Source: Streptomyces asiaticus (GTDB taxonomy: Bacteria > Actinomycetota > Actinomycetes > Streptomycetales > Streptomycetaceae). Taken from it: 64,000 bases of DNA. Below, piece by piece: positions 42,317 through 56,291 of the stretch (position 1 is its first letter; the number at the start of each line of letters is the position of its first letter). Where the stretch lies: assembly GCF_018138715.1 (NCBI RefSeq), contig NZ_JAGSHX010000006.1, positions 3,348,001 through 3,412,000 on the forward strand, in the 5' to 3' direction. Below the pieces are notes generated by a model that saw nothing but the letters and a program-made list of their open reading frames with translations, was not told the DNA's origin and ran no database searches. A program made the position numbers and the translations under genes.

Positions 42317-42390
42317 GCGCCGCTAGCTCAGTTGGTTAGAGCAGCTGACTCTTAATCAGCGGGTCCGGGGTTCGAGTCCCTGGCGGCGCA
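42317..42390 (+). tRNA. tRNA-Lys (anticodon CTT)
   Basis: A 74-nt cloverleaf. The acceptor stem GCGCCGC pairs with GCGGCGC (42383-42389); the D arm is GCTC...GAGC; the anticodon stem GCTGA/TCAGC holds the loop CTCTTAA with CTT at 42351-42353; the T arm is CGGGG-TTCGAGT-CCCTG. The 3' CCA is not encoded. The terminator follows after 8 nt. Confidence 0.97.
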
Positions 42391-42398
42391 CAGACAGT

Positions 42399-42497: not shown

Positions 42498-43811
42498 TCA
42501 CACCGCCGGGCCCACGAGCCGGGTGACCGCCTTCACCGCCTTGTCCGGGCCGGGCATCGCGAGCGCCTCCCGGCGCAGGGCATGCGCCGCCGCGGCGTAC
42601 GAGGGCTGCTCCAGCAACGCGAACAGATCCAGCGCCAGCCGGGCGCCCGCCGCCCGCGCCCCGGGCCGGGTGGCGTCGAGCGCGTCGGCGGGCAGATACA
42701 TCCCGGCGCCCGCCCGGGCCAGCCGCGCCCCGTTCAGCTGGTGCTCCAGGCGGGGCGCGACGACCAGCTGCGGCACCCCGGCCATGGCGGCGGCCAGCAC
42801 CGCCGCACCCCCGCCCTGGTGGAGCAGTGCCCGGCAGCCCGGCAGCACCCGGTGCAGCGGCCCGGCGGGCGGCCGCCCCTCGGCGGCGCTTCCGACCCGG
42901 ACGACCTCCACGCCCCGCGCCTCGGCGGCCCACAGCGCGGCCCTTACGGCGTCCGGCGGGCCACCGGCGTCGTCCCACGCCGCGCACACCCGCACCGGCC
43001 CGGAGCGCCTGGGGCCACCGTCCGGCCCGCGCCGCCCGTTCGACGCGGCGGCGTGGAGCCCGGGGTGCCCGGAGTGGCCGGGGCGCCCGGGGCGTCCGGG
43101 CTGCTCGTGGCGCCCGGGGCGCGCCCCGGCGCGGCGGGCCTCGTACGGCGACGGCGTCTCGTCCGGCGACGTCCCGTCGTGCGGCACGAAGCGCACCGGG
43201 AGCCGCCGCGCCCGCGAGGGCAGCGCGAGGCTCGGCGGGCAGGGGTCGAGCCACAGGTCGGGCTCGCGTGCCGGATCGGCGCCGTAACGCCGCATCAGCC
43301 GGGCGTAGCCGGGCAGCGGCGGGCCTTCGAGCCGCTGCCGGTCCAGCCGCAGGACGGCCGCGCTCCCCCACAACTGGCCGACCGCGGGCACACCCAGCGC
43401 CCCCGCGGCCACCGTGCCCGCGTACGCGCCCGCGTCATGCACCACCAGCTCCGGCTGCCAGCAGCGGGCGAAGGCCACCAGCCCCTGGGCCATCGCCTCG
43501 GCGATCCGCACCTGCCGGTCGCCGCACGCGCGCAGCACGCCGTGCTGCTCCGGAGTGAGCGCGGCGGGCCGCACCGGCCATTCCGTGGGCCAGATGCCGC
43601 GCGGTCGGCGCGCCGCGTCCGGCGGTCTGACCACCGCCATGGGCAGGGCGCCGATCTGCACCGGCACCAGGCCGGTCCGGGCGACGGCCGCCGCGCACTC
43701 GGACGGCACCGCGACCCGCACCTGGTGCCCGGCCTCGAGCAGGGCGCGGGCCAGCGGCACCATGGGGACGAGATGGGCGCCCGAAGCCCAGGTCGTGAAC
43801 AGGACGCGCAT
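42498..43811 (-). CDS. GT1 macrolide/aromatic-type glycosyltransferase
   Basis: A 437-aa GT-B fold enzyme of the antibiotic glycosyltransferase group. The N-terminus MRVLFTTWASGAHLVPMVPL holds the acceptor-side loop. The C-terminal nucleotide-sugar site is LLHQGGGAAVLAAAMAGVPQLVVAP followed by LEHQLNGARLARAG. It transfers an activated (often deoxy) sugar to a small natural product. An unusual Gly/Pro/Arg-rich insert (RPGRPGHSGHPGLH) lies between the two halves. ATG 43811 is chosen because GGAGGT stands right before it; GTG 43817 overlaps that site. No deoxysugar biosynthesis genes are in the window. Confidence 0.88.
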   Translation of the reverse strand: MRVLFTTWASGAHLVPMVPLARALLEAGHQVRVAVPSECAAAVARTGLVPVQIGALPMAVVRPPDAARRPRGIWPTEWPVRPAALTPEQHGVLRACGDRQVRIAEAMAQGLVAFARCWQPELVVHDAGAYAGTVAAGALGVPAVGQLWGSAAVLRLDRQRLEGPPLPGYARLMRRYGADPAREPDLWLDPCPPSLALPSRARRLPVRFVPHDGTSPDETPSPYEARRAGARPGRHEQPGRPGRPGHSGHPGLHAAASNGRRGPDGGPRRSGPVRVCAAWDDAGGPPDAVRAALWAAEARGVEVVRVGSAAEGRPPAGPLHRVLPGCRALLHQGGGAAVLAAAMAGVPQLVVAPRLEHQLNGARLARAGAGMYLPADALDATRPGARAAGARLALDLFALLEQPSYAAAAHALRREALAMPGPDKAVKAVTRLVGPAV

Positions 43812-43902: not shown

Positions 43903-44649
43903 TCAGCGGCGCCCCGCGAGCGTCAGCGTCTCGCCGGTGATGGCGCCGTTGGCCGCCGAGCACAGGAAGACGAGAGCGCGGGCGATGTCCTCGGGGCTGG
44001 TCGTGGAGGACTCGGGCGTGGTGAAACCCTCGGGGGCGGTGGGCGGCCGGTCGGGCGGGGTGGGCCCGGGGCATACGGCGTTGAGCAGCACGCCATCCCC
44101 GCCCACCTCGCCCACCAGCCCACGGACCAGACCCCCCAGCCCGGCCCGCGCGACCCCATGGAACTCCCCGCCCGGGTCGCCGCCCGGCACATGCGGCGGG
44201 GCCACCAGCGCGATCCGGCCCCAGCCGCGCTTCCGCATCCCGGCCACGGCCCACTGGACGGTGCGGATCGCGGGCGCGAAGGCGCCGGCGACCAGCGGCC
44301 GCCAGTGCTCCTCCGGGACGTCCTCGAACCGGGCGTGCGGCTCACGCCGCGCGCCCCTTCGCCGGGCGGCCGCCACCAGCACGTCCAGCCCGCCCCAGTG
44401 TTCCTCCACGGCGGCCACGACCCAGCGCGGCGACGCGGCGTCATCCAGGGCGTACGGCACGGCGAAGGCGCGGCCCCGATCCGGTCCGGACAGCTCGACG
44501 GCCAGCGCCTCGGCGGCCTCGCGGCGGTGCCGGAAGGCGAGCGCGACCCGGGCGCCCTGCTCCGCGAAGGCGCGGGCGGCGGCGCTGCCGATGGCGCCGG
44601 TGGCCCCGGTGACCAGGACCGTGCGCCCCTCAAGGCCGAGGTCCAACAT
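43903..44649 (-). CDS. SDR-family protein with substituted catalytic residues
   Basis: A 248-aa Rossmann protein with an intact NAD(P) loop (VLVTGATGAIGSAAARAF) and the C-terminal GAITGETLTLAG of FabG-like enzymes. The catalytic YxxxK is replaced: the aligned stretch is GGEFHGVARAGL, giving His/Arg instead of Tyr/Lys, and the usual Ser is absent in RIALVAPPHV. The NAG motif region reads VAAARRRGA. It may bind a ligand or nucleotide without ordinary ketoreduction, or use another chemistry. It lies between the glycosyltransferase and GlxA-type regulator genes on the same strand. Confidence 0.8.
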   Translation of the reverse strand: MLDLGLEGRTVLVTGATGAIGSAAARAFAEQGARVALAFRHRREAAEALAVELSGPDRGRAFAVPYALDDAASPRWVVAAVEEHWGGLDVLVAAARRRGARREPHARFEDVPEEHWRPLVAGAFAPAIRTVQWAVAGMRKRGWGRIALVAPPHVPGGDPGGEFHGVARAGLGGLVRGLVGEVGGDGVLLNAVCPGPTPPDRPPTAPEGFTTPESSTTSPEDIARALVFLCSAANGAITGETLTLAGRR

Positions 44650-44752: not shown

Positions 44753-45703
44753 CTATCCGGCGTTTCGCTGGAAGGCGGAGCGATAGCTGTGCGGGCTGGT
44801 GCCGACGACGCGCTTGAAGCGGTCCCGGAAGGAGGTGGGCGAGCCGAAACCCACCTGGGCGGCGATGCGCTCCACGGGGTGGGTGGTGGCCTCCAGCAGA
44901 TACTGCGCCTGGCGGATCCGGGCGCGGTGCAGCCACTGGAGCGGGGTGGTCCCGGTGTGCTCCCGGAAGCGGCGGTTGAGGGTGCGGGTGCTCATGCCGA
45001 CGTGGGCGGCGATCTCGTTGAGGGTGAGGTCCCGTCCGGCGTTGTCCTCCATCCACCGCAGCAGGGGTTCGAACAGCGATCCGCGCGGTACGGGCGGCTG
45101 GTCATGGACGATGAACTGGGCCTGTCCGCCCTCCCGTTCCAGGGGCATCACGGACAGCCGGGCGGCGTCGGCGGCCACGGCGGAGCCATGGTCGCGCCGG
45201 ATGATGTGCAGACACAGATCGAGCCCGGCCGCGGCGCCCGCCGAGGTGAGGAACTGACCGTTGTCCACATAGAGCACATCCGGGTCGACCTGGATCTTCG
45301 GATGGAGCTCGGCGAGCAGCGCGCCGCCGAGCCAGTGCGTGGTGGCGCGGAGTCCGTCGAGCAGCCCGGTGGCGGCGAGGACGAAGGCCCCGGAGCAGAT
45401 CGAGGCGATACGGGTGCCCCGCCCGGCCGCGTCCCGCAGCGCCTGGATCACCTCGTCGGGGAGCGGGAGCAGGGGGTCGACGCGGCCGGGCACGACGATG
45501 GTGTCGGCCTCGGCGAGCGCCTCGAGCCCGTACGGGGCCTGGAGGGCGAACACCCCGGCGTCGACGGCGGGGGCGGGGGCACAGACCCGGACCCGGTAGG
45601 GCTCCCGGCCGTCCGGCAGCCGGGTGCGGGTGAACACCTCGATCGGGGTGGCCAGATCGAAGGCGATGACCTGGTCCAGCGCCAGGATCACGACAGTGTG
45701 CAT
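44753..45703 (-). CDS. GlxA-type AraC-family regulator (DJ-1/PfpI + HTH)
   Basis: A 316-aa regulator: residues 1-185 form a DJ-1/PfpI-like domain with ASICSGAFVLAATGLLDG (the nucleophile-elbow Cys is present), and residues ~205-310 form an AraC DNA-binding domain with two HTH motifs (LTLNEIAAHVGMSTRTLNRR, VERIAAQVGFGSPTSFRDRF). Streptomyces has several of these with roles in development and metabolism; the target here is unknown. Ninety-two bp separate it from the end of the FAD monooxygenase gene on the same strand. Confidence 0.9.
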   Translation of the reverse strand: MHTVVILALDQVIAFDLATPIEVFTRTRLPDGREPYRVRVCAPAPAVDAGVFALQAPYGLEALAEADTIVVPGRVDPLLPLPDEVIQALRDAAGRGTRIASICSGAFVLAATGLLDGLRATTHWLGGALLAELHPKIQVDPDVLYVDNGQFLTSAGAAAGLDLCLHIIRRDHGSAVAADAARLSVMPLEREGGQAQFIVHDQPPVPRGSLFEPLLRWMEDNAGRDLTLNEIAAHVGMSTRTLNRRFREHTGTTPLQWLHRARIRQAQYLLEATTHPVERIAAQVGFGSPTSFRDRFKRVVGTSPHSYRSAFQRNAG

Positions 45704-45795: not shown

Positions 45796-47031
45796 TCATG
45801 TACGGCCGCACACCCCGGCGTCGGCGATACGGATCGAGGGGTTGCCGTAGGCCATGCGCTGGAGGATCTTGCGATAGATCGGCGTATGACGCAGCGCCCG
45901 CGTGAGACGGGGGCGCACCCGGGTGGTGAACGCGCCCTGCGAGAGGATCGCCCGGCTCTGGAGGGTCTGCATCCGCATCACCGCCGCGATATCGGGCCCG
46001 CGCCGCCGCTCGAACTCCGCCAGCCGCTCGGCGCTGGTGTCGCCCTCGGCCAGGGCGCGGGCCAGCAGGGGATGCAGCACCACCGCGTCCTGCACGGCGA
46101 GGTTGATGCCCTGGGCGCCGATCGGGCTGTGGGTGTGGGCGGCGTCGCCGATCAGCACCAGCCCGTCGGCCACCCAGCGCTCGGCACGTGCGGAGAAGAC
46201 ATCGAGCACACCGAGGTCGGCGGGGGTGCGGATCTGATCGCGGATCAGCGTGGCGTACCGCGGCACGGCACGCACCAGCCGCTCCTTGACGTGGTCGAGG
46301 CCGAGGGCGGCGATATGGCCGTAGCGCCGGTGCGGCAGGGTCCAGCCGATCTGGATCCGGTTCGGCCAGGAGCCGTAGACCAGCACCGGGCCGCCCCCCG
46401 TGCGGTACACCCGCACATCGCGGATCGGCGGCTCTTCCGGGGGCGTGCTGAGGGTGCACCACAGCACATCCTGAGCGAACGCGTCGGCGCGGCCCGCCCC
46501 GATGCCGGCCAGCCGCCGGATCCGCGAGAACCGGCCGTCCGCGCCGACCACGACCCGGGCCCGGACGGCACAGCGGCCCGGCGGACCTTCGGCGATGACC
46601 CCGGCGATCCGCCCCTCCCGCCGCAGCAGCGCCCCGGCCCGCCGTCCGGGCAGATAGCGGAAGCCGGGCGAACGGCGGCAGCGGGCGAGGAGCTCATCCA
46701 GCAGATGGGGGCGCGGCACGCTCAGCAGGTGGTCGTGCGGGGCCGGAAGCAGCCGGTAGTCGGCCTCCAGCAGCACCCGCTCGCCCTCGATCACCAGGAA
46801 CCGGTGGTGCTCATGGGCGCCGCGGGCGCGGGCGCCGGCGAGCACATCGAGCGCGTCCAACAGCTCCATCGCGCCGGGCTGGAGTATTTCGCCGCGGGCC
46901 ACGCGCTGATGCGCGCGGGCGCACTCCACCACGGTCACCCGAGCCCCCGACCGCAGCATCAGCAGCGCCAGCACCAGACCGGCCGGGCCGCCCCCGACCA
47001 CGCACACATCGGTGTCGATCTCGCGCATCAT
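45796..47031 (-). CDS. FAD-dependent monooxygenase (PHBH fold)
   Basis: A 411-aa class A flavoprotein: DVCVVGGGPAGLVLALLML (FAD-ADP loop), RVVVGADGRFSRIRRLAGI (DG motif), LVLIGDAAHTHSPIGAQGIN (GD motif). The size and motifs fit oxygenases that hydroxylate or epoxidise polyketide or aromatic intermediates, and also ubiquinone/menaquinone-type hydroxylases. AGGAGG precedes two adjacent ATGs (47031 or 47028). It is followed by a 316-bp G-rich gap to the SARP gene on the same strand. A tailoring role in the adjacent metabolite locus is inferred from position. Confidence 0.87.
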   Translation of the reverse strand: MMREIDTDVCVVGGGPAGLVLALLMLRSGARVTVVECARAHQRVARGEILQPGAMELLDALDVLAGARARGAHEHHRFLVIEGERVLLEADYRLLPAPHDHLLSVPRPHLLDELLARCRRSPGFRYLPGRRAGALLRREGRIAGVIAEGPPGRCAVRARVVVGADGRFSRIRRLAGIGAGRADAFAQDVLWCTLSTPPEEPPIRDVRVYRTGGGPVLVYGSWPNRIQIGWTLPHRRYGHIAALGLDHVKERLVRAVPRYATLIRDQIRTPADLGVLDVFSARAERWVADGLVLIGDAAHTHSPIGAQGINLAVQDAVVLHPLLARALAEGDTSAERLAEFERRRGPDIAAVMRMQTLQSRAILSQGAFTTRVRPRLTRALRHTPIYRKILQRMAYGNPSIRIADAGVCGRT

Positions 47032-48172: not shown

Positions 48173-48185
48173 GGTCGTGTACCTC

Positions 48186-48203
48186 CGTCAACGGTCCGTC
48201 AAG
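48186..48203 (-). promoter_or_regulatory. Candidate SARP binding site: two TTGACGG heptamers, 11-bp period
   Basis: Read on the minus strand the site is TTGACGG-accg-TTGACGG (48203-48197 and 48192-48186). Two heptamers with a 4-bp spacer is the known layout for DnrI/PimR-type SARPs. It is 14 bp upstream of the SARP ATG and 153 bp upstream of the divergent precursor-peptide start. Confidence 0.6.
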
Positions 48204-48355
48204 TGCCTCCTGGCCGCGCGGCCCTGCCACCGAGGCATCTAAGAGCCTCGCTTGTGGGCGGCCTGTGCGGCCAGTGCCGGAGTAACGAGCTCGATATGAG
48301 TTCCAGAGCCCCGCACCATGACAAATTCACACCCCTGGCGATGAGAGAGTCCGCG

Positions 48356-48547
48356 ATGACCGATACGCCCATCCCACATGAGCCCCCGAGCCCCGCCGCC
48401 CTGGCTCATCCCGCCACGCCGGCCAAGCCAGCCGAGGCCGTCCGCCCGCCCGCCGAGGACGACGACCTGGTCATCGAGGACCTCTCCGACGCCGCCTGGC
48501 CCATCCCCGCGCCCGGCATCTGCATCTGCACCGTCGGCGCCGAATGA
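48356..48547 (+). CDS. Candidate azol(in)e RiPP (TOMM) precursor peptide
   Basis: A 63-aa peptide. The first part is Pro/Ala-rich (MTDTPIPHEPPSPAALAHPA). An acidic segment DDDLVIEDLSD then resembles the LxVxDL leader motif recognised by RRE domains in thiopeptide and related pathways. The C-terminus is PAPGICICTVGAE, whose Cys56, Cys58 and Thr59 are the only cyclisable residues near the end. It is encoded 7 nt before the fused cyclodehydratase gene, the normal place for a TOMM precursor. GAGAG lies ~7 nt before ATG 48356; ATG 48341 would add five residues. The cleavage site is unknown (after AAW or PAPG are guesses). Confidence 0.72.
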   Translation: MTDTPIPHEPPSPAALAHPATPAKPAEAVRPPAEDDDLVIEDLSDAAWPIPAPGICICTVGAE

Positions 48548-48554
48548 CCGGGCC

Positions 48555-50975
48555 ATGACCGGCGAACTGGGCTTCACACCACATCTGCGGGTCGAGCCGG
48601 TGCCCGGCGAGGCCGTCTACCTCGTCTCCGAGCACGGCGTCACGGCGCTGCACGGGCGGGCGATCGCCGCGCTGGCGCCGCTGCTCGACGGGTCACGGGA
48701 CCTCGCCCACATCCTCACCGAGGCCGCCGCGCCCGGCCGCGCCGCGGGCCCGCCCGGCGCGGTCCCGGCCGGCGCGGTCCCGGCCGGGCAGGCCGAGCGC
48801 GTCATCGCCCGTCTCCGCGCGGCCGGACTGGTCTCCGAGCGGGAGCACGCCTGGACCCCCGAGGAGGCGTACTGGGAGCTGGCCGGGCTGGGCACGGGCG
48901 GCTCCGCCGCGGCCCCCACGCCCGCGTCCGCCCGCCCCGCCGTGGCCCCGCTGGTCCTCGGCTCGACCGACCCGGACGAGGTGGTCCGGGCGCTGCGCGT
49001 CGCGGGGCTGAGGACCGTGGACGGCGAACCGGCGGACCCGAGGTCCGCGAACGCGGAGGCGGTGAACGGCGATCCGACGACCTCGGGGGCCCATAGCCCC
49101 CGACGAGAGATATGTCAAATCGCCTTCCGTCAACATGACGCCGCAGAACTCACCCTTGTGGTGTGCGATGACTACCTCGATCCCCGGCTCGCCGCCGTGG
49201 ACGCCGCGCACCGCGCCACCGGCCGTCGCTGGCTGCCCGTCAAACCGGTGGGCACCCAGGCGTGGCTGGGCCCGTTCCTCGGCGCCCCCGACGATCCGTG
49301 CTGGGTCTGCATGGCCGACCGGCTGTGGCGCGGACGGCAGGCCGAGGCGTATCTCCAGCGCCGGCTCGGCCGCCCCGGACCGGTGCCGCGGCCGCCCGCG
49401 TCCCTGCCCGCGAGCCGCGCCGCCGCGCTCCAGCTCGCCGCCCTGGAGGCCGCCAAGTGGCTGGCCGGGTACCGGCACCCGGGCCAGCGGGAGCTGCGCA
49501 CCCTGGACAGCCTCACCGCCACCGTGGACCGCCATCCGCTCTCCCGCCGCCCGCAGTGCGCCGGCTGCGGCGATCCGGCGCTGGTCGCGGCCCGGATACG
49601 GGCGCCCCTGTCGCTGCCCTCCCCACGGGAGCCACGGGAGCCACTGGCCGCGACCGGTACCGCCACCGACGCCACCGACACCTCCCCGCGCGGGATCATG
49701 GAGCGCTACGGACATCTGGTGGACCCCGTCACCGGGCTGGTCACCGAGATCCGGCGCGATCCGCGCGGCCCCGCCGTCCTCAACTGCTTCCACGCCCGCC
49801 ACCCTTCGTACGCCGGAGCGGGCCCCCACAGCGGCCTGGACGCCGTAAGGGCCGGGCTGCGGGCCGCCGCCCACGGTAAGGGCCGCACGGCCGAACAGGC
49901 GCGGGCGAGCGCGCTGTGCGAGGCCCTGGAGCACTACAGCGGCCACTTCCAGGGGGACGAGCCGCGTCAGCGCGCCCGCTACCGCGATCTGCGCCCGGAG
50001 GACGCGGTGCACCCGGACACCGTCCAGCTCTTCGACCCGCGCCAGTTCCTCGACCCCGCCCTCCCCGCGCGCCACCGCGTCCAGGATCCGTTCGACGAGG
50101 GCGCGGAGCTGGACTGGACCCCGGTGTGGTCGCTCACCGCCGGACGCCACCGACTGCTGCCCACCGCGCTGCTGTACTACGGCGCCCCGCAGCCCCCGGG
50201 CCACCGCTGCTGCCGGGCGGACTCCAACGGCGCGGCGGCGGGCGGCACCCTGGCCGACGCCGTCGTACGGGGCTTCCTGGAGCTCGTGGAGCGGGACGCG
50301 GTCGCCCTGTGGTGGTACAACCGCACCCGGCAGCCCGCCGTGGCCCTGGACGCCTTCGACGACCCGTGGCCGGCCGCAGTGCGCGCCGCCCACCGGAGCG
50401 TGCGGCGCGAGGTGTGGGCCCTGGACCTCACCACGGACTTCGGCATCCCGGTGGTCGCCGCGCTCTCCCGGCGCCTCGACAAGCCCGCCGAGGACATCAC
50501 CTTCGGCTTCGGCGCTCACTTCGACCGGCACACCGCGCTGTGCCACGCCCTCGCCGAGCTGAACCAGATGCTTCCGGCGGTGGTCGAGGCCCGCGCCGAC
50601 GGCGGGGGTTACGGCGCCACCGAGCCCGAGGCGCTGCGCTGGTTCCGTACCGCGACCCTCGCCGACCACCCGTATCTGACCCCCGATCCGGCCGCCCCGC
50701 CGCCCCCGGGGATATCCGGCCCCCCGCCGGCCCCGGAGGGCGATGCGCTGGCCACCGTGCGGGAGTTGGTGCGCGGACACGGGATGGAACTGCTGGTGCT
50801 GGACCAGACCCGGCCGGATGTGGGGCTGCCGGTGGCCAAGGTGCTGGTGCCCGGAATGCGCCCGCACTGGGCCCGGTTCGCGCCCGGCCGGCTCTTCGAC
50901 GCCCCCGTGGCGCTCGGCCGGCTGCCGGGGCCCACGCCCTACGCGGACCTCAACCCGATTCCGTTTTTCCTGTGA
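48555..50975 (+). CDS. Fused TOMM cyclodehydratase: RRE + E1-like + YcaO
   Basis: An 806-aa fusion. Residues ~1-95 form a winged-helix peptide recognition element (FTPHLRVEPVPGEAVYLVSE, VIARLRAAGLVSE). Residues ~120-340 are the E1/ThiF-like partner with a tetrathiolate zinc site, C249-W-V-C252 and C335-A-G-C338. Residues ~380-806 are the YcaO domain with ATP-binding pieces SALCEALEHYSGH and ADSNGAAAGGTLADAVVRGF, followed by LELVERDA. The C-terminus LNPIPFFL is a shortened version of the Pro-rich tail needed by azoline-forming YcaOs. It should convert Cys/Thr of the upstream peptide to thiazoline/oxazoline rings with ATP. No SagB-type dehydrogenase is recognised in the window. Confidence 0.9.
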   Translation: MTGELGFTPHLRVEPVPGEAVYLVSEHGVTALHGRAIAALAPLLDGSRDLAHILTEAAAPGRAAGPPGAVPAGAVPAGQAERVIARLRAAGLVSEREHAWTPEEAYWELAGLGTGGSAAAPTPASARPAVAPLVLGSTDPDEVVRALRVAGLRTVDGEPADPRSANAEAVNGDPTTSGAHSPRREICQIAFRQHDAAELTLVVCDDYLDPRLAAVDAAHRATGRRWLPVKPVGTQAWLGPFLGAPDDPCWVCMADRLWRGRQAEAYLQRRLGRPGPVPRPPASLPASRAAALQLAALEAAKWLAGYRHPGQRELRTLDSLTATVDRHPLSRRPQCAGCGDPALVAARIRAPLSLPSPREPREPLAATGTATDATDTSPRGIMERYGHLVDPVTGLVTEIRRDPRGPAVLNCFHARHPSYAGAGPHSGLDAVRAGLRAAAHGKGRTAEQARASALCEALEHYSGHFQGDEPRQRARYRDLRPEDAVHPDTVQLFDPRQFLDPALPARHRVQDPFDEGAELDWTPVWSLTAGRHRLLPTALLYYGAPQPPGHRCCRADSNGAAAGGTLADAVVRGFLELVERDAVALWWYNRTRQPAVALDAFDDPWPAAVRAAHRSVRREVWALDLTTDFGIPVVAALSRRLDKPAEDITFGFGAHFDRHTALCHALAELNQMLPAVVEARADGGGYGATEPEALRWFRTATLADHPYLTPDPAAPPPPGISGPPPAPEGDALATVRELVRGHGMELLVLDQTRPDVGLPVAKVLVPGMRPHWARFAPGRLFDAPVALGRLPGPTPYADLNPIPFFL

Positions 50976-51098: not shown

Positions 51099-52334
51099 GT
51101 GCAGGGGAGCCTCTTGCCCGACGATGCCGGGAACCATCCACCGCGCCACCAGGACGGTCTGGCGCCGCGTCTGGCCGTGGTCATCACGGTCCTCGTGCTG
51201 GTGGGGTACTTCGCCGTGGCCGTCACCTATGTGGTCGACGGCAATCGTTCGGGCAGGTCGGTCGACGCGGCGATGCTCGGTCTCGCGCTGCTGCCGATGA
51301 CCGTGCTGCTCTGCCTCCAGATGCTGCACTCCTTCCCCGGCCTCGCGCCCCGGCTCAGCGGTGCGCGGCGCTGGACGCTGGCGCTCCAGGCGGTGCTGAC
51401 CTTCGCCCCCTTCGCCGTCTTCAAGCACGCCTGGCTGGGCATGCCGGGCTTCCTGGCCGGTTCCTCACTGCTGGTGCTGGTCCCGGCGCTGGCGTGGCCC
51501 GCGTTCGCGGCCATCCTGCTGTGCACGGACGTCCTGCTGTTCCAGGTGGGCTTCGGCTGGGGTCAGGTCGCGTACACCACCGTCTCCACCGCGCTGACCG
51601 GGCTGGTGGTCTTCGGGCTCTCGCGGCTGTCCGGGCTGGTCGCCGAGGTGTCCCGGTCCCGGGCGGAGCTGGCCCGGCTGGCGGTGGCCCAGGAGCGGCT
51701 GCGGTTCTCCCGGGACGTGCACGATCTGCTGGGCTACAGCCTGTCCACGATCACCCTCAAATGCGAGCTGGTGCACCGGCTGGTGCCCCGGCAGAACTCC
51801 CGCGCCCAGCAGGAGCTCTCGGAGATCCTCCAGACCTCCCGTCAGGCCCTCGCCGACGTACGGGCGGTGGCCAGCGGCTATCGCATGATGTCGCTGTCGG
51901 CGGAGGCGGCGACGGCCCGGTCGATGCTGGCCGCGGCGGGCATCAGCGCCACGGCCGAGATCGACTGCGGACCGCTGCCGGAGCTGGTGGACACGGTGCT
52001 GGCGAGCGTGTTGCGCGAGGGGCTGACCAATGTGCTGCGCCACAGCAAGGCCGACCACTGCGCGGTCGAGGCGCGGCGCAGCGGGCACCGGGTGTCGCTG
52101 ACCCTCGTCAACGACGGGGTGGGCCGGCCGTCCACGATCCTGCGCGCCGACAGCTCGGACGGCGGCAGCGGTATCGGCAACCTCCGGGTGCGGGTGGAGA
52201 ACCTCGGCGGGCGGCTGCGCGCGGGCGTACGGCCGGACGGCTGGTTCGAGTTACGGGCGGAGCTGGATGTGTCCGTGGACGCGCCGCCGCGAAGCGGCCG
52301 GGAGTACGGCCCGGGGCCGACGGTGACGGCGTAA
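51099..52334 (+). CDS. NarL-type sensor histidine kinase (HisKA_3)
   Basis: A 411-aa kinase. Four to six membrane helices (residues ~23-180) are followed by a dimerisation helix and the phospho-acceptor His208 in FSRDVHDLLGYSLSTITLK, then a GHKL ATPase with REGLTNVLRHSKADHCAV (N box) and SDGGSGIGNLRVRVENLGG (G2). GTG 51099 has GGAGGA just upstream; an in-frame ATG at 50982 lies almost on the cyclodehydratase stop and has no site. Its likely partner is the NarL-family regulator encoded convergently at 52446-53051. The final codons are part of a 12-bp repeat. Confidence 0.88.
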   Translation: MQGSLLPDDAGNHPPRHQDGLAPRLAVVITVLVLVGYFAVAVTYVVDGNRSGRSVDAAMLGLALLPMTVLLCLQMLHSFPGLAPRLSGARRWTLALQAVLTFAPFAVFKHAWLGMPGFLAGSSLLVLVPALAWPAFAAILLCTDVLLFQVGFGWGQVAYTTVSTALTGLVVFGLSRLSGLVAEVSRSRAELARLAVAQERLRFSRDVHDLLGYSLSTITLKCELVHRLVPRQNSRAQQELSEILQTSRQALADVRAVASGYRMMSLSAEAATARSMLAAAGISATAEIDCGPLPELVDTVLASVLREGLTNVLRHSKADHCAVEARRSGHRVSLTLVNDGVGRPSTILRADSSDGGSGIGNLRVRVENLGGRLRAGVRPDGWFELRAELDVSVDAPPRSGREYGPGPTVTA

Positions 52335-53191: not shown

Positions 53192-54835
53192 TCACGCCGC
53201 ACCACCCCGGCAGGGCTCACCGACCCCCGGCCCGAACTCGGCGTGCAGCGCGCGCACTTCGCCCCGCAGATAGCGCTCGCGCAGCAGGGCGCGCCGGATC
53301 TTGGCGGTTCCCGCCCCGCGCACGGTGCCGGGGCGCACCAGCAGCAGCGCGCCGGTCTCGACCCCGAACTCCTCCGCGATCAGGGCGCGGATCCGGGCCG
53401 CCAGCCGGGGCAGCCCGGTGCGCGCCCCGCCCGCCGTACGGACCACCTCCTGGACGACCACCAGCGTCCCCGCGCCGGGCCCGGCGCAGAACACCCGGGC
53501 CGATCCCAGCGCCTTCGCGCAGCCCAGCAGTTCGCGCTCCACGTCCTGGGGGTGCAGGGTGTGGCCGTCCACCAGGAGGGCGTCACGGACCCGGCCGGTC
53601 ATCCGGAGCTGGCCGTTGACCGTAAGGCCGAGATCGCCGGTGCGCAGAAAGCCGCCAGGGCCCTCGGCGACCCGGGCGGCGAACAGCAGCGCGGTGTCCG
53701 ACGGACCGCCCCAGTGGCCGGTGGCCACGGCGGGGCCGCGCACCCAGATCTCCCCGGGCGCCCCGTCCGGCAGCCGGCGCCCGGTCAGCGGGTCGACCAC
53801 GGCGAAGTCCGCGCCCGGCACCGGTGCGCGCCCCCTGGCCAGCGGCACCGGCGCCCCCTCGGCCGGGACGTACCCCGCCACCAGGGTGCCCGGACGCAGG
53901 CCCAGCGGGGCGCAGCGGTGGGGGAAGGCGGCCATGGTCCCGGCCGAGACCGGCTCCCCGGCGTTCAGCGCGGTACGCCAGCGGGAGAGGTCGAGCCCGG
54001 CCGGTGGCTCGTCGCCGAGGAGGGCGGCGCAGCGGGCGTGGAGGATGTCGGGCGCGAGGGTTTCGGTGATGCCGTGGCGGCTGATGGCGCGCAGCCAGCC
54101 GAGCGGATCGGTGCGGTACGGCTCCGCCGGAAGGGTCACGGCGGTGGCACCGAGCCATAAGGGGTGCAGCACCTGCCCGATCAGGCCGGGGGTGTGGTGG
54201 CGGGGCAGCCAGCCGCCGATCCGGGAGCGGCGGTCGGTGCCGAGCGTTCGCCGCAGCCCGGCCATGGCCGCCGTAAGGTTGCCATGGGTCAGCAGGGCGC
54301 CGCGGGGGGCGGTGGCGGGCCCGGAGTCGTAGGCGAGCAGCGCGAGGCTGTCGGCGGTGGTGCGGAGGGGTTGCCGGGGTGCGTCGGCGCCCGCGTCGGG
54401 GCGGAGTCCGTCGACGGCTAGGCAGGTCAGACCGGCGCGGCCGATTCGGGAGAGCCGGCGGGAGGTCTCGGTGGCGTGGGCGGTCTCGGTGAGGACGAGG
54501 TCCACGACGGCGTCCCGGACGATCGAGGCGGTGCGCTCGGCATCGGTCCGGGAGGCGGACGGCGCGGGCACGGGCACCGCGACGGCCCCCGCGTACAGAC
54601 AGCCGAGCAGCGCCACCGCGGCGCACGGACCGGGGTCCATGGCGAGCAGCACCCGGCGGCCGGTGGCGTCCCGGGCGCGCAGCCAGGCGGCCACGGCTTC
54701 GGCACGGGCGTCGAGCGCGGCGTAGGACACGCGGTGTTCGGTGCCATCGGGGGCGGGGTGGGCGAGCGCCGTGCCGTCGGGGCACCGGAGGACCCGTTCC
54801 TTCAGGGCCTCGGCCAGATTCGCGTATCGCGGCAT
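53192..54835 (-). CDS. AMP-binding (fatty acyl-AMP ligase-like) protein
   Basis: A 547-aa ANL-superfamily enzyme of the FAAL/FadD32 type. The start NLAEALKERVLRCPDGTALA is typical. The phosphate loop is degenerate (LLAYDSGPATAPRGALLTHG, with Asp for the usual Thr). Later motifs are kept: AGYVPAEGAPV (A5-like), GEIWVRGPAVATGHWG, FLRTGDLGLTVNGQLRMTGR and the C-terminal Lys in GTAKIRRALLRERYLRG. It would adenylate a fatty or aryl acid for loading on a carrier protein, but no carrier protein, PKS or NRPS is adjacent. ATG 54835 has GGGAG upstream; an in-frame start at 54910 lacks this. Confidence 0.82.
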   Translation of the reverse strand: MPRYANLAEALKERVLRCPDGTALAHPAPDGTEHRVSYAALDARAEAVAAWLRARDATGRRVLLAMDPGPCAAVALLGCLYAGAVAVPVPAPSASRTDAERTASIVRDAVVDLVLTETAHATETSRRLSRIGRAGLTCLAVDGLRPDAGADAPRQPLRTTADSLALLAYDSGPATAPRGALLTHGNLTAAMAGLRRTLGTDRRSRIGGWLPRHHTPGLIGQVLHPLWLGATAVTLPAEPYRTDPLGWLRAISRHGITETLAPDILHARCAALLGDEPPAGLDLSRWRTALNAGEPVSAGTMAAFPHRCAPLGLRPGTLVAGYVPAEGAPVPLARGRAPVPGADFAVVDPLTGRRLPDGAPGEIWVRGPAVATGHWGGPSDTALLFAARVAEGPGGFLRTGDLGLTVNGQLRMTGRVRDALLVDGHTLHPQDVERELLGCAKALGSARVFCAGPGAGTLVVVQEVVRTAGGARTGLPRLAARIRALIAEEFGVETGALLLVRPGTVRGAGTAKIRRALLRERYLRGEVRALHAEFGPGVGEPCRGGAA

Positions 54836-55025: not shown

Positions 55026-56291
55026 TCAGCGCGCCCTGCGGTTGACCCGGACGGTCCAGCCCCCGTCGGCGGCGCGGCCCGCCACCGTGATCCGTACGGA
55101 GTCCTCCTTGACCGACATGCTGTCCCCGACGCCGAGGGGGGCGTCGGCGAGTTCGGGGTAGACCGACTCGTTCCAGCAGGCGGAGGTGGCGGGGTGGCCG
55201 TCCAGCACCTGGACGGGGCCGTCGCCCGACGCCTTGTCGTTGTGGACGCGGTAGACCAGCACGCCCTCGGTGCAGGTGCCCGCGTCGTTGCCGCGGCCGC
55301 CGCGCGCCTCGATGGCCAGCGCGGTGGTGGGCCCGGTGCGGACCACGACCAGCCGGGTGCGGGTGTCTCCACCGGACCGGCCGCGCGCCATGGGGGTGGC
55401 CAGGGGCTGGAGGGTGTAGCGGCGCGGTCCGGTGGCGCGGTCGCACGCCACCTGGCGCCCGCCGAGCCAGCCGAGCTTCCACTTGTGCCAGCCGAACGGA
55501 TCGGGTGCCATGCCGAACTGGCTTCCCATCAGATCCCAGTCGCCGACGTAGGTGTCCCATTCGGCGTTGCCGTCGGTGTCCTTCGGCCGGTGGTAGAGGT
55601 CGGGAAGGTCGAAGACGTGCCCGGTCTCATGGGCCAGCACATTGCGGTCCGGCGGATGGTGCTCGAAAACGGTGACCAGTCGGCGCAGATCGACACCGTC
55701 CGCGCGCAGTGGCTTTTCGAAGTTGACCACTTTCGTCGCGTCGGCGTCCACACCGGGGGCGTCGGGGTCGGCGACCAGATAGACGAGGTCGTAGCGGGCG
55801 AAGTCGAGGTGCGGATCGGCGGCGGCGATGGCGTCACGCAGATAGGCGGCGCGGCGCTGGGCGTTCCAGTCGCGCTGTATGGCGTACGCGGTGGAGCGCC
55901 GGGGCATGGTGATCCAGCGCCGCAGCGGATGCACCCGTAAGCCGAACTTCCCGTAGGAGGCCCGTTTGAAGAAATCGGGGGTCGCGGGGATGTGGTCGGC
56001 GGCCAGCTGGGCGGGGGTCACCCGGGGCCGGGCGTCCGGGAAGGACAGGAAGACCATCGCCGCGTCCAGGCGGCGGACCGGGCGCGGATAGCGGGAGTTC
56101 CAGGTGTCCACGCCCTCCGAGTGATGGGCATCGGTGCGTTCCAGGTCACAGGGGCCGCCGGGGCCGGCCGCGACCGCCGGACCCGCCACCACGGTGGTCG
56201 CGATGAGCGCGCTCAGCGAGGTGAGCAGGGCTCCGGTCCGACGCAGCCGAGGCTGCCGGTGCACCCCCTCGGGTACCTGAGGACGCACCAT
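55026..56291 (-). CDS. Secreted M6-like metalloprotease
   Basis: A 421-aa exported protease. A signal peptide after an Arg-rich start (RRTGALLTSLSALIATTVVA) is followed by the mature M6-type domain with the zinc site NVLAHETGHVFDLPDLYH (HExxH plus downstream Asp) and DLMGSQFG as the Met-turn region. Cysteines (GPCDLE, QVACDR, GTCTEG, SACWNE) probably pair outside the cell. ATG 56291 has GGGAGGT directly upstream; an in-frame start at 56414 precedes unrelated sequence. Being secreted, it could be a general exoprotease; removal of a RiPP leader outside the cell is possible but unsupported. Confidence 0.85.
   Translation of the reverse strand: MVRPQVPEGVHRQPRLRRTGALLTSLSALIATTVVAGPAVAAGPGGPCDLERTDAHHSEGVDTWNSRYPRPVRRLDAAMVFLSFPDARPRVTPAQLAADHIPATPDFFKRASYGKFGLRVHPLRRWITMPRRSTAYAIQRDWNAQRRAAYLRDAIAAADPHLDFARYDLVYLVADPDAPGVDADATKVVNFEKPLRADGVDLRRLVTVFEHHPPDRNVLAHETGHVFDLPDLYHRPKDTDGNAEWDTYVGDWDLMGSQFGMAPDPFGWHKWKLGWLGGRQVACDRATGPRRYTLQPLATPMARGRSGGDTRTRLVVVRTGPTTALAIEARGGRGNDAGTCTEGVLVYRVHNDKASGDGPVQVLDGHPATSACWNESVYPELADAPLGVGDSMSVKEDSVRITVAGRAADGGWTVRVNRRAR

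Follow-up and report, generated by a model that had tools for sequence, protein, structure and literature searches.

A locus in a 64,000-nt stretch of the Streptomyces asiaticus genome (RefSeq assembly GCF_018138715.1, contig NZ_JAGSHX010000006.1, positions 3,348,001 to 3,412,000; hereafter the window) encoded a 63-aa precursor of a ribosomally synthesized and post-translationally modified peptide (RiPP) with a minimal Cys-Ile-Cys-Thr core, a fused YcaO cyclodehydratase, a DesK-like sensor histidine kinase, a NarL/LuxR-type response regulator, and a divergent Streptomyces antibiotic regulatory protein (SARP) (Table 1). These genes may make up a RiPP signalling cassette, in which a thiazoline peptide signal would be read by its own kinase and would switch on neighbouring clusters, a reading whose chances we put just short of even. 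Because, in the strains compared, the same kinase and response regulator accompanied the peptide beside changing antibiotic clusters, its role may be that of a chemical signal controlling antibiotic genes and not that of an antibiotic.

The precursor, a frame ending in GICICTVGAE whose stop lay 7 nt ahead of the YcaO ATG (48555), had been proposed in the first-pass annotation of the window, and both its coordinates and 43 aligned precursors from a database search (the window's peptide included, one sequence being identical) agreed with that proposal: residues I55-C56-I57-C58-T59 were identical in 43/43, the DDLVIEDL motif was mostly kept with a middle part of variable length, and the homologues with a named host all came from Streptomyces. 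An alternative in-frame ATG at 48341 would give a precursor 5 aa longer, and the start at 48356 was considered likelier because homologues mostly aligned from MTDT. The cyclisable residues after the leader motif were Cys56, Cys58, and Thr59, those already assigned to the core, plus Ser44 immediately C-terminal to the motif. The core was not Cys/Ser/Thr-rich as in thiazole/oxazole-modified microcins (TOMMs) or linear azol(in)e peptides, a feature that some TOMM families lack as well, and the number of core Cys in relatives ranged from one to three. An argument from selection on the codons of the core was considered and dropped as uninformative: the last 30 codons of the closest nine loci held 12 variable codons, 12/12 of them nonsynonymous, so precursor conservation there was little evidence of selection. 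Since the nearest loci were uninformative, the case for a real peptide rested on the distant loci L008, L009, L013 (S. sparsogenes ATCC 25498), and L050, which still contained ICICT with YcaO just 65–80% identical. The peptide frame was kept next to orthologous YcaO genes, the point on which the annotation had made its reading depend, and at the level of sequence the 63-aa precursor was confirmed as a genuine conserved gene.

The YcaO protein was used to search 101 Streptomyces genomes, the window's own included (match, E ≤ 0.001; strong match, E < 1e-90), and matched in 61 of them, strongly in 28 (own included). Larger stretches were taken around all but one of the 27 strong loci in the other genomes (the exception, L102, being added later), two weaker loci, and 17 loci of named genomes; 44 YcaO loci were compared for neighbours, 21 of which formed the window's clade. 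The enzyme consisted of an N-terminal part resembling a RiPP recognition element (RRE), an E1-like domain (TIGR03882, residues 224–396), and a SagD-type YcaO domain (TIGR03604, residues 441–804; 241.3 bits versus a cut-off of 219.25; Pfam YcaO, 324 bits). The single 806-aa fusion with a complete zinc tetrathiolate, as first annotated, was borne out, zinc-ligand Cys 249, 252, 335, and 338 being invariant across 39 aligned YcaO sequences (the window's included). It matched LynD by sequence (E 3.5e-137), aligned also with TruD and MusD, and had LynD, TruD, and MusD as the top fold matches of its AlphaFold (AF2) model (pLDDT 82.1, pTM 0.82). As in TOMM loci, the precursor adjoined an E1-like plus YcaO cyclodehydratase, and the cyclodehydratase fold was accompanied by an RRE and a zinc site. 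The fusion had no further match at E ≤ 0.001 in the own genome (11.88 Mb), and the proteins nearest to it bore the names of Streptomyces asiaticus and relatives. The earlier statement that a SagB dehydrogenase was lacking held for the entire own genome in a TIGR03605 search that was positive in 8/14 control genomes, and a dehydrogenase supplied from elsewhere in the genome was rejected, none having been found there, including in an earlier search run with no positive control; SagB-type dehydrogenases were present in 7/44 YcaO loci and in 0/21 of the window's clade. No lanthipeptide dehydratase or pyridine synthase was found among the scanned neighbour proteins, no separate search having been aimed at them.

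A histidine kinase of one family (DesK/HisKA_3 type) was present in all 44 YcaO loci, within two genes downstream in 43 of them and 6.8 kb off in L073, and the response regulator in 42 (missing in L051 and L062; 8 kb off in L073); the pair was also found in both of two loci examined later. The kinase was predicted to be a multi-helix membrane sensor, its model being of moderate quality (pLDDT 74.7, pTM 0.47). The first-pass annotation, whose listed genes were all recovered, had missed kinase and regulator as well as the conserved promoter element described below. By public annotation, all six plasmid loci (six of the seven Streptomyces records with >70% query cover; L089 and L072 being one locus) encoded a TOMM protein and then a histidine kinase and a response regulator, with a small hypothetical gene directly upstream of the TOMM protein in five of the six (not in L091). 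At other YcaO enzymes, 0/12 loci (L074, L075, and L103–L112, the last ten being weaker matches of the YcaO search) contained a member of this kinase or regulator family within the stretch covered, which was short in some of them. A kinase search of these 101 genomes (18 candidates scored in each, loci called at ≥200 bits, three tandem genes merged) gave 36 loci at this threshold, the next match scoring 165.6; 27/36 adjoined this YcaO, and a ≥200-bit kinase locus was present in 27 of the 28 genomes that matched YcaO strongly. As in peptide-pheromone systems, the putative signal precursor was linked to a modifying enzyme, a kinase, and a response regulator. Long kinases (766–782 aa), tandem-fused as judged by double matches, replaced the single kinase in L051 (12448-14748), L053, and L093 (8356-10686). 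In L089 (22865-25443; NBC_00335 plasmid), a separate YcaO–TfuA pair adjoined the module, and a response regulator and a sensor kinase belonging to that pair came next.

Diverged loci carried other cores (CICW, CFCE, CFCL, CGICF, or a single Cys). The first core Cys lay 13–17 residues past the LVIE-type motif in 28/29 precursors, a sample biased in that many peptides had been picked by motif pattern and some motif variants admitted by eye; the 12–14 residues ahead of this Cys were about 12% identical on average despite the fixed motif–Cys distance. Random placement of the same Cys brought at most 13/29 inside the range in 20,000 trials, and two loci added later obeyed the ruler with distances of 15 and 14. 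In L067, L073, and L091, no clear precursor could be made out. Ahead of the LVIE-type motif, the precursors of L062, L066, L068, L070, and L116 carried a stretch that we take to resemble nitrile hydratase-like leader peptides (NHLPs). The L064 and L090 precursors held repeated FTFCAxPDP-like or FTLCAGP units, which suggests several cores in one peptide.

Core and sensor diversified together: the similarity of an 8-residue core segment correlated with the identity of the membrane part of the kinase, with kinase-domain and YcaO identity controlled for (partial r 0.398, permutation p 0.0005, n=24), and the corresponding values for the kinase domain and for YcaO were −0.119 and 0.008 (24 loci). 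The partial r was 0.373 with five more loci (p 0.001, n=29) and 0.202 without the window's clade (p 0.01, n=24). The leader motif tracked YcaO (0.212 and 0.358), its relation to the sensor being non-significant. When cores were simulated on the YcaO plus kinase, YcaO, or kinase trees, 0/400 runs each reached 0.373, and on the sensor's own tree the observed value was reached in 26/400. This pattern is the one expected of a ligand and its receptor; it is a correlation only, and other pairs covary too.

Upstream of the precursor, a conserved promoter element was composed of CCAGTG followed by an (A/G)TGA-n5-TCA palindrome. The start distance from half to half (29 loci, by regular expression) was 25 nt in 8 and 46–47 nt in 21; the two spacing classes differ by about two helical turns. 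The composite pattern occurred once in the whole own genome (48271-48330). With a matrix built from distant loci, the window's promoter gave the two best hits in 64 kb (14.1 and 13.3; next, 12.5), and of nine control loci eight scored ≤10.6 and L074 scored 15.6; L053 and L056, which had no match to the regular expression, were left out of the promoter matrix. The element may be a putative regulator site at the precursor promoter. Similar sites were found ahead of (i) SARP genes in L086 and L096 and (ii) a small ThcOx-like gene in L086, L093, and L102. A protein of ~200–250 aa recurred by the module (L093 12813-13571, L102 5202-5879, L086 21956-22576, and L051 11627-12313); that of L051 was weakly ThcOx-like and those of L093, L102, and L086 matched no Pfam family, and in L093 the protein stood with kinase and regulator without YcaO.

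The divergent SARP gene lay within 0.75 kb in 31/44 YcaO loci; a contig end truncated four of the remaining 13. In the window's clade, SARP was 92–100% identical where present (L002–L017 and L048–L050), YcaO there being 65–93% identical; this conservation is unusually strong for a cluster regulator. The notion of SARP as sole owner of the promoter element was weakened, because loci such as L054 and L057–L060, which have no SARP close by, also had a scoring element ahead of the precursor. The paired repeats upstream of the SARP gene (Table 1) presumably resemble sites of the kind that SARPs bind.

The enzymes around this module were exchangeable. The window and L050 had the same left flank, tRNA-Lys, and right flank, and between tRNA-Lys and SARP they had different blocks: (i) GT1 glycosyltransferase, short-chain dehydrogenase/reductase (SDR), AraC-type regulator, and FAD monooxygenase in the window and (ii) ketosynthase, polyketide cyclase, and ABM monooxygenase in L050; tRNA-Lys may be a hot spot for insertion. 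The GT1 and FAD monooxygenase families were each found in 9 loci, the closest, and were absent or replaced in most others where the peptide genes remained; relatives of GT1 adjoined type II ketosynthase genes in L015 (38% identity) and L051. Type II ketosynthase genes were located within about 10 kb in 12/44 loci, and other loci had further neighbours: (i) tryptophan halogenase and nonribosomal peptide synthetase genes in L086, (ii) VlmB-like and ketosynthase III genes in L087, (iii) phenylalanine aminomutase (beta-Phe) plus acyl carrier and related genes in L088 and L091, and (iv) pabB, diiron oxygenase, and ketosynthases in L089. L097 and L056 had five cluster genes in common at 74–92% identity, plus SARP (88%), regulator (78%), and kinase (59%), and L097 contained neither precursor nor YcaO between SARP and kinase, with no YcaO match in its genome (G010). 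Elsewhere in the own genome there were three or more type II ketosynthase pairs (G000:C2 38564-72924 and C6 2018320-2020793), whose chain-length-factor-like member was 62–70% identical to one beside the L051 module.

Table 1. Features of the window, with positions counted from its first letter
Feature	Coordinates	Strand	Basis or remarks
tRNA-Lys(CTT), left border of exchanged gene block	42317-42391		also in L050, L002, L008, L009
GT1 glycosyltransferase, EryCIII-like; variable neighbour	42498..43811	-	domain match
SDR ketoreductase-like; variable neighbour	43903..44649	-	domain match, locus comparison
AraC-type regulator with DJ-1/PfpI domain; variable neighbour	44753..45703	-	domain match, locus comparison
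FAD_binding_3 monooxygenase; variable neighbour, outside constant module	45796..47031	-	domain match, locus comparison
SARP (AfsR-type activator), 274 aa	47348..48172	-	divergent from precursor; domain match
Two copies of TCCGTCAA, 11 nt apart	48184..48202	.	upstream of SARP gene; visible in window's clade
Conserved promoter element CCAGTG-40 nt-CATGACAAATTCAC	48271..48330	.	between SARP and precursor; alignable in 31 loci
RiPP precursor peptide, 63 aa	48356..48547	+	ATG 48356, stop ends 48547; ends GICICTVGAE; database homologues
Leader recognition motif DDLVIEDL (residues 36-43)	48461..48484	+	LVIE-type motif kept in diverged precursors
Minimal core Cys-Ile-Cys-Thr (residues 56-59)	48521..48532	+	ICICT invariant in alignment
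Fused RRE/E1-like/YcaO cyclodehydratase, 806 aa	48555..50975	+	domain profiles, LynD match, zinc Cys, fold model
DesK-like membrane sensor histidine kinase, 411 aa; proposed receptor	51099..52334	+	domain match; in 44/44 loci
NarL/LuxR-type response regulator, 201 aa	52446..53051	-	Response_reg + GerE; in 42/44 loci
AMP-binding ligase; probably neighbour, not module	53192..54835	-	family in 12 loci
M6-family metalloprotease	55026..56291		downstream of module; in 19 loci

The proposed mechanism would run as follows. The RRE of the YcaO fusion would bind the LVIEDL leader, and the enzyme would convert one or two Cys at the fixed distance (here Cys56 and Cys58) to thiazolines, and perhaps Thr59 to a methyloxazoline; because no dehydrogenase was found, the azolines are expected to stay azolines in the window's clade. 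After removal of the leader and release, by some protease or by YcaO itself in a MusD-like manner, a small modified C-terminal piece would be the ligand of the adjacent multi-helix kinase, which would signal to the NarL-type response regulator. By acting on the element that lies between the SARP gene and the precursor, the regulator would bring about both autoinduction and expression of SARP, which in turn would switch on whichever biosynthetic cluster adjoins. The cyclodehydration half of this mechanism follows from the chemistry of the YcaO enzyme family; for the second half, from kinase to cluster, we infer each step with the support of linkage and covariation.

Several observations weigh against a signalling cassette. 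Kinases are common near antibiotic clusters, and 9/36 kinase loci had no adjoining YcaO, so the kinase can function without the peptide. The covariation rested on 24–29 related loci; the segment before the core tracked kinase domain (0.186) and YcaO (0.129), and the tail tracked YcaO (r 0.388, 24-locus set). The window's promoter site, a candidate target of this regulator, stood out only narrowly from the other hits (14.1 versus 12.5), one control reaching 15.6. No exporter or leader protease family was constant across the YcaO loci; the M6 metalloprotease, a candidate for trimming the peptide, occurred in 19 loci (window's clade plus nearest relatives) as part of their common flank and not in distant ones.

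A conventional product, a small bioactive azol(in)e peptide for which the kinase/regulator pair and SARP serve production control or self-protection in a supercluster with other antibiotic genes, is unlikely. In its favour, the cyclodehydratase is of the LynD/TruD/MusD type, SagB dehydrogenase accompanies it in 7/44 loci, and some lantibiotics are known to act through a kinase as their own inducers. The missing constant exporter or protease tells against such a product as well; moreover, no immunity gene was recognised, though none was searched for as such, the cores varied widely, down to one Cys, with recognition spacing and regulators kept, and the neighbours were exchanged around a fixed module. 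The modified peptide could also be a building block, carrier, or cofactor for a neighbouring polyketide or other product, as the ketosynthase genes near 12/44 loci might suggest, but the neighbouring pathways are chemically different, the link to type II polyketide synthases is not constant, and some genes of the L056 cluster persist in L097, where precursor and YcaO are missing; we regard this role as improbable. A RiPP–polyketide hybrid was rejected, ketosynthases lying near 12/44 loci and one cluster persisting without the peptide genes.

Two further explanations were weighed. That the locus in the window's clade is in decay, left over with little function from a type II polyketide synthase cluster, would agree with the lack of a ketosynthase among the genes called at 38–60 kb of the window and with the presence of both ketosynthases in L013 and L015 and of one in L050, but the frames of precursor, YcaO, kinase, regulator, and SARP are intact and clade-conserved, SARP at 92–100%, which makes decay quite improbable. 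The first-pass annotation had GT1 and the FAD monooxygenase decorate a bis-azoline to yield a small glycosylated or oxidised product. Its azol(in)e RiPP reading stood as far as the minimal core and the fused cyclodehydratase are concerned, and domain matches agreed with the SARP, EryCIII-like GT1, and FAD_binding_3 monooxygenase it had placed at the locus; the decoration was not supported. GT1 and the monooxygenase do lie on the far side of SARP in the window and the closest loci, but most other loci lack them or have different genes in their place although the peptide genes remain, precursor, YcaO, kinase, and regulator being shared there and glycosyltransferase, SDR, FAD monooxygenase, polyketide synthase, and other enzyme genes changing, and GT1 relatives adjoin the type II ketosynthase genes of L015 and L051. 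As interchangeable members of the flanks, the two enzymes seem to serve, or to be left over from, some other pathway and not to tailor the peptide, and tailoring, rejected as the leading explanation, is very improbable.

Compared with known systems, the putative signalling cassette would combine a cyanobactin-type cyclodehydratase with a peptide-pheromone two-component system, a small azol(in)e RiPP being coupled in it to a dedicated kinase and a SARP. Peptide-pheromone two-component systems include Agr, ComQXPA, and nisin-type autoinduction; as in these, the modified peptide, modifying enzyme, multi-helix kinase, and regulator stand in one locus and core and sensor covary, whereas the window differs in its DesK/HisKA_3 kinase, YcaO modification, lack of a constant exporter, and an output apparently via SARP. 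NHLP-leader TOMMs are similar in the leader stretch seen in some distant precursors, which the window's precursor does not have. The cyanobactin cyclodehydratases LynD (4v1t), TruD (4bs9), and MusD (7u58) have the same RRE/E1-like/YcaO fusion, but the constant partners here were kinase and response regulator, and no PatA/PatG-like protease or prenyltransferase was found among the scanned neighbour proteins; MusD, of muscoride biosynthesis, also cleaves C-terminal residues without a protease, according to a review (PMC10885120). Goadsporin and other azole RiPPs are likewise of the azol(in)e RiPP class from Streptomyces. Goadsporin is reported to contain six azoles and two dehydroalanines (PMC5303826), to have a lanthipeptide-like dehydratase, and to promote secondary metabolism at low concentration (PMC4603692); in contrast, the window offers a handful of cyclisable residues and no dehydratase among the scanned neighbours. 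A study on YcaO and a two-component system (PMC12402327) was set aside as unrelated, the YcaO in its accessible text being a mechanistic analogy. No published description of the cassette was recognised in the literature searched, which is weak evidence as subscription papers lay outside it.

In Streptomyces, gamma-butyrolactones and similar small-molecule hormones wake antibiotic clusters. A wider claim, which we hold with more doubt than confidence, is that cassettes of this kind provide widespread Streptomyces peptide hormones, each with a ruler-placed single or double thiazoline and a strain-specific kinase, and act as a portable switch that keeps unrelated clusters silent until the signal arrives. 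If true, a ribosomal, genetically encoded class would join the small-molecule hormones of Streptomyces; receptor specificity would be predictable from the peptide sequence, and therefore a short synthetic peptide could address silent clusters; and whether minimal-core YcaO products are signals, not antibiotics, would become testable.

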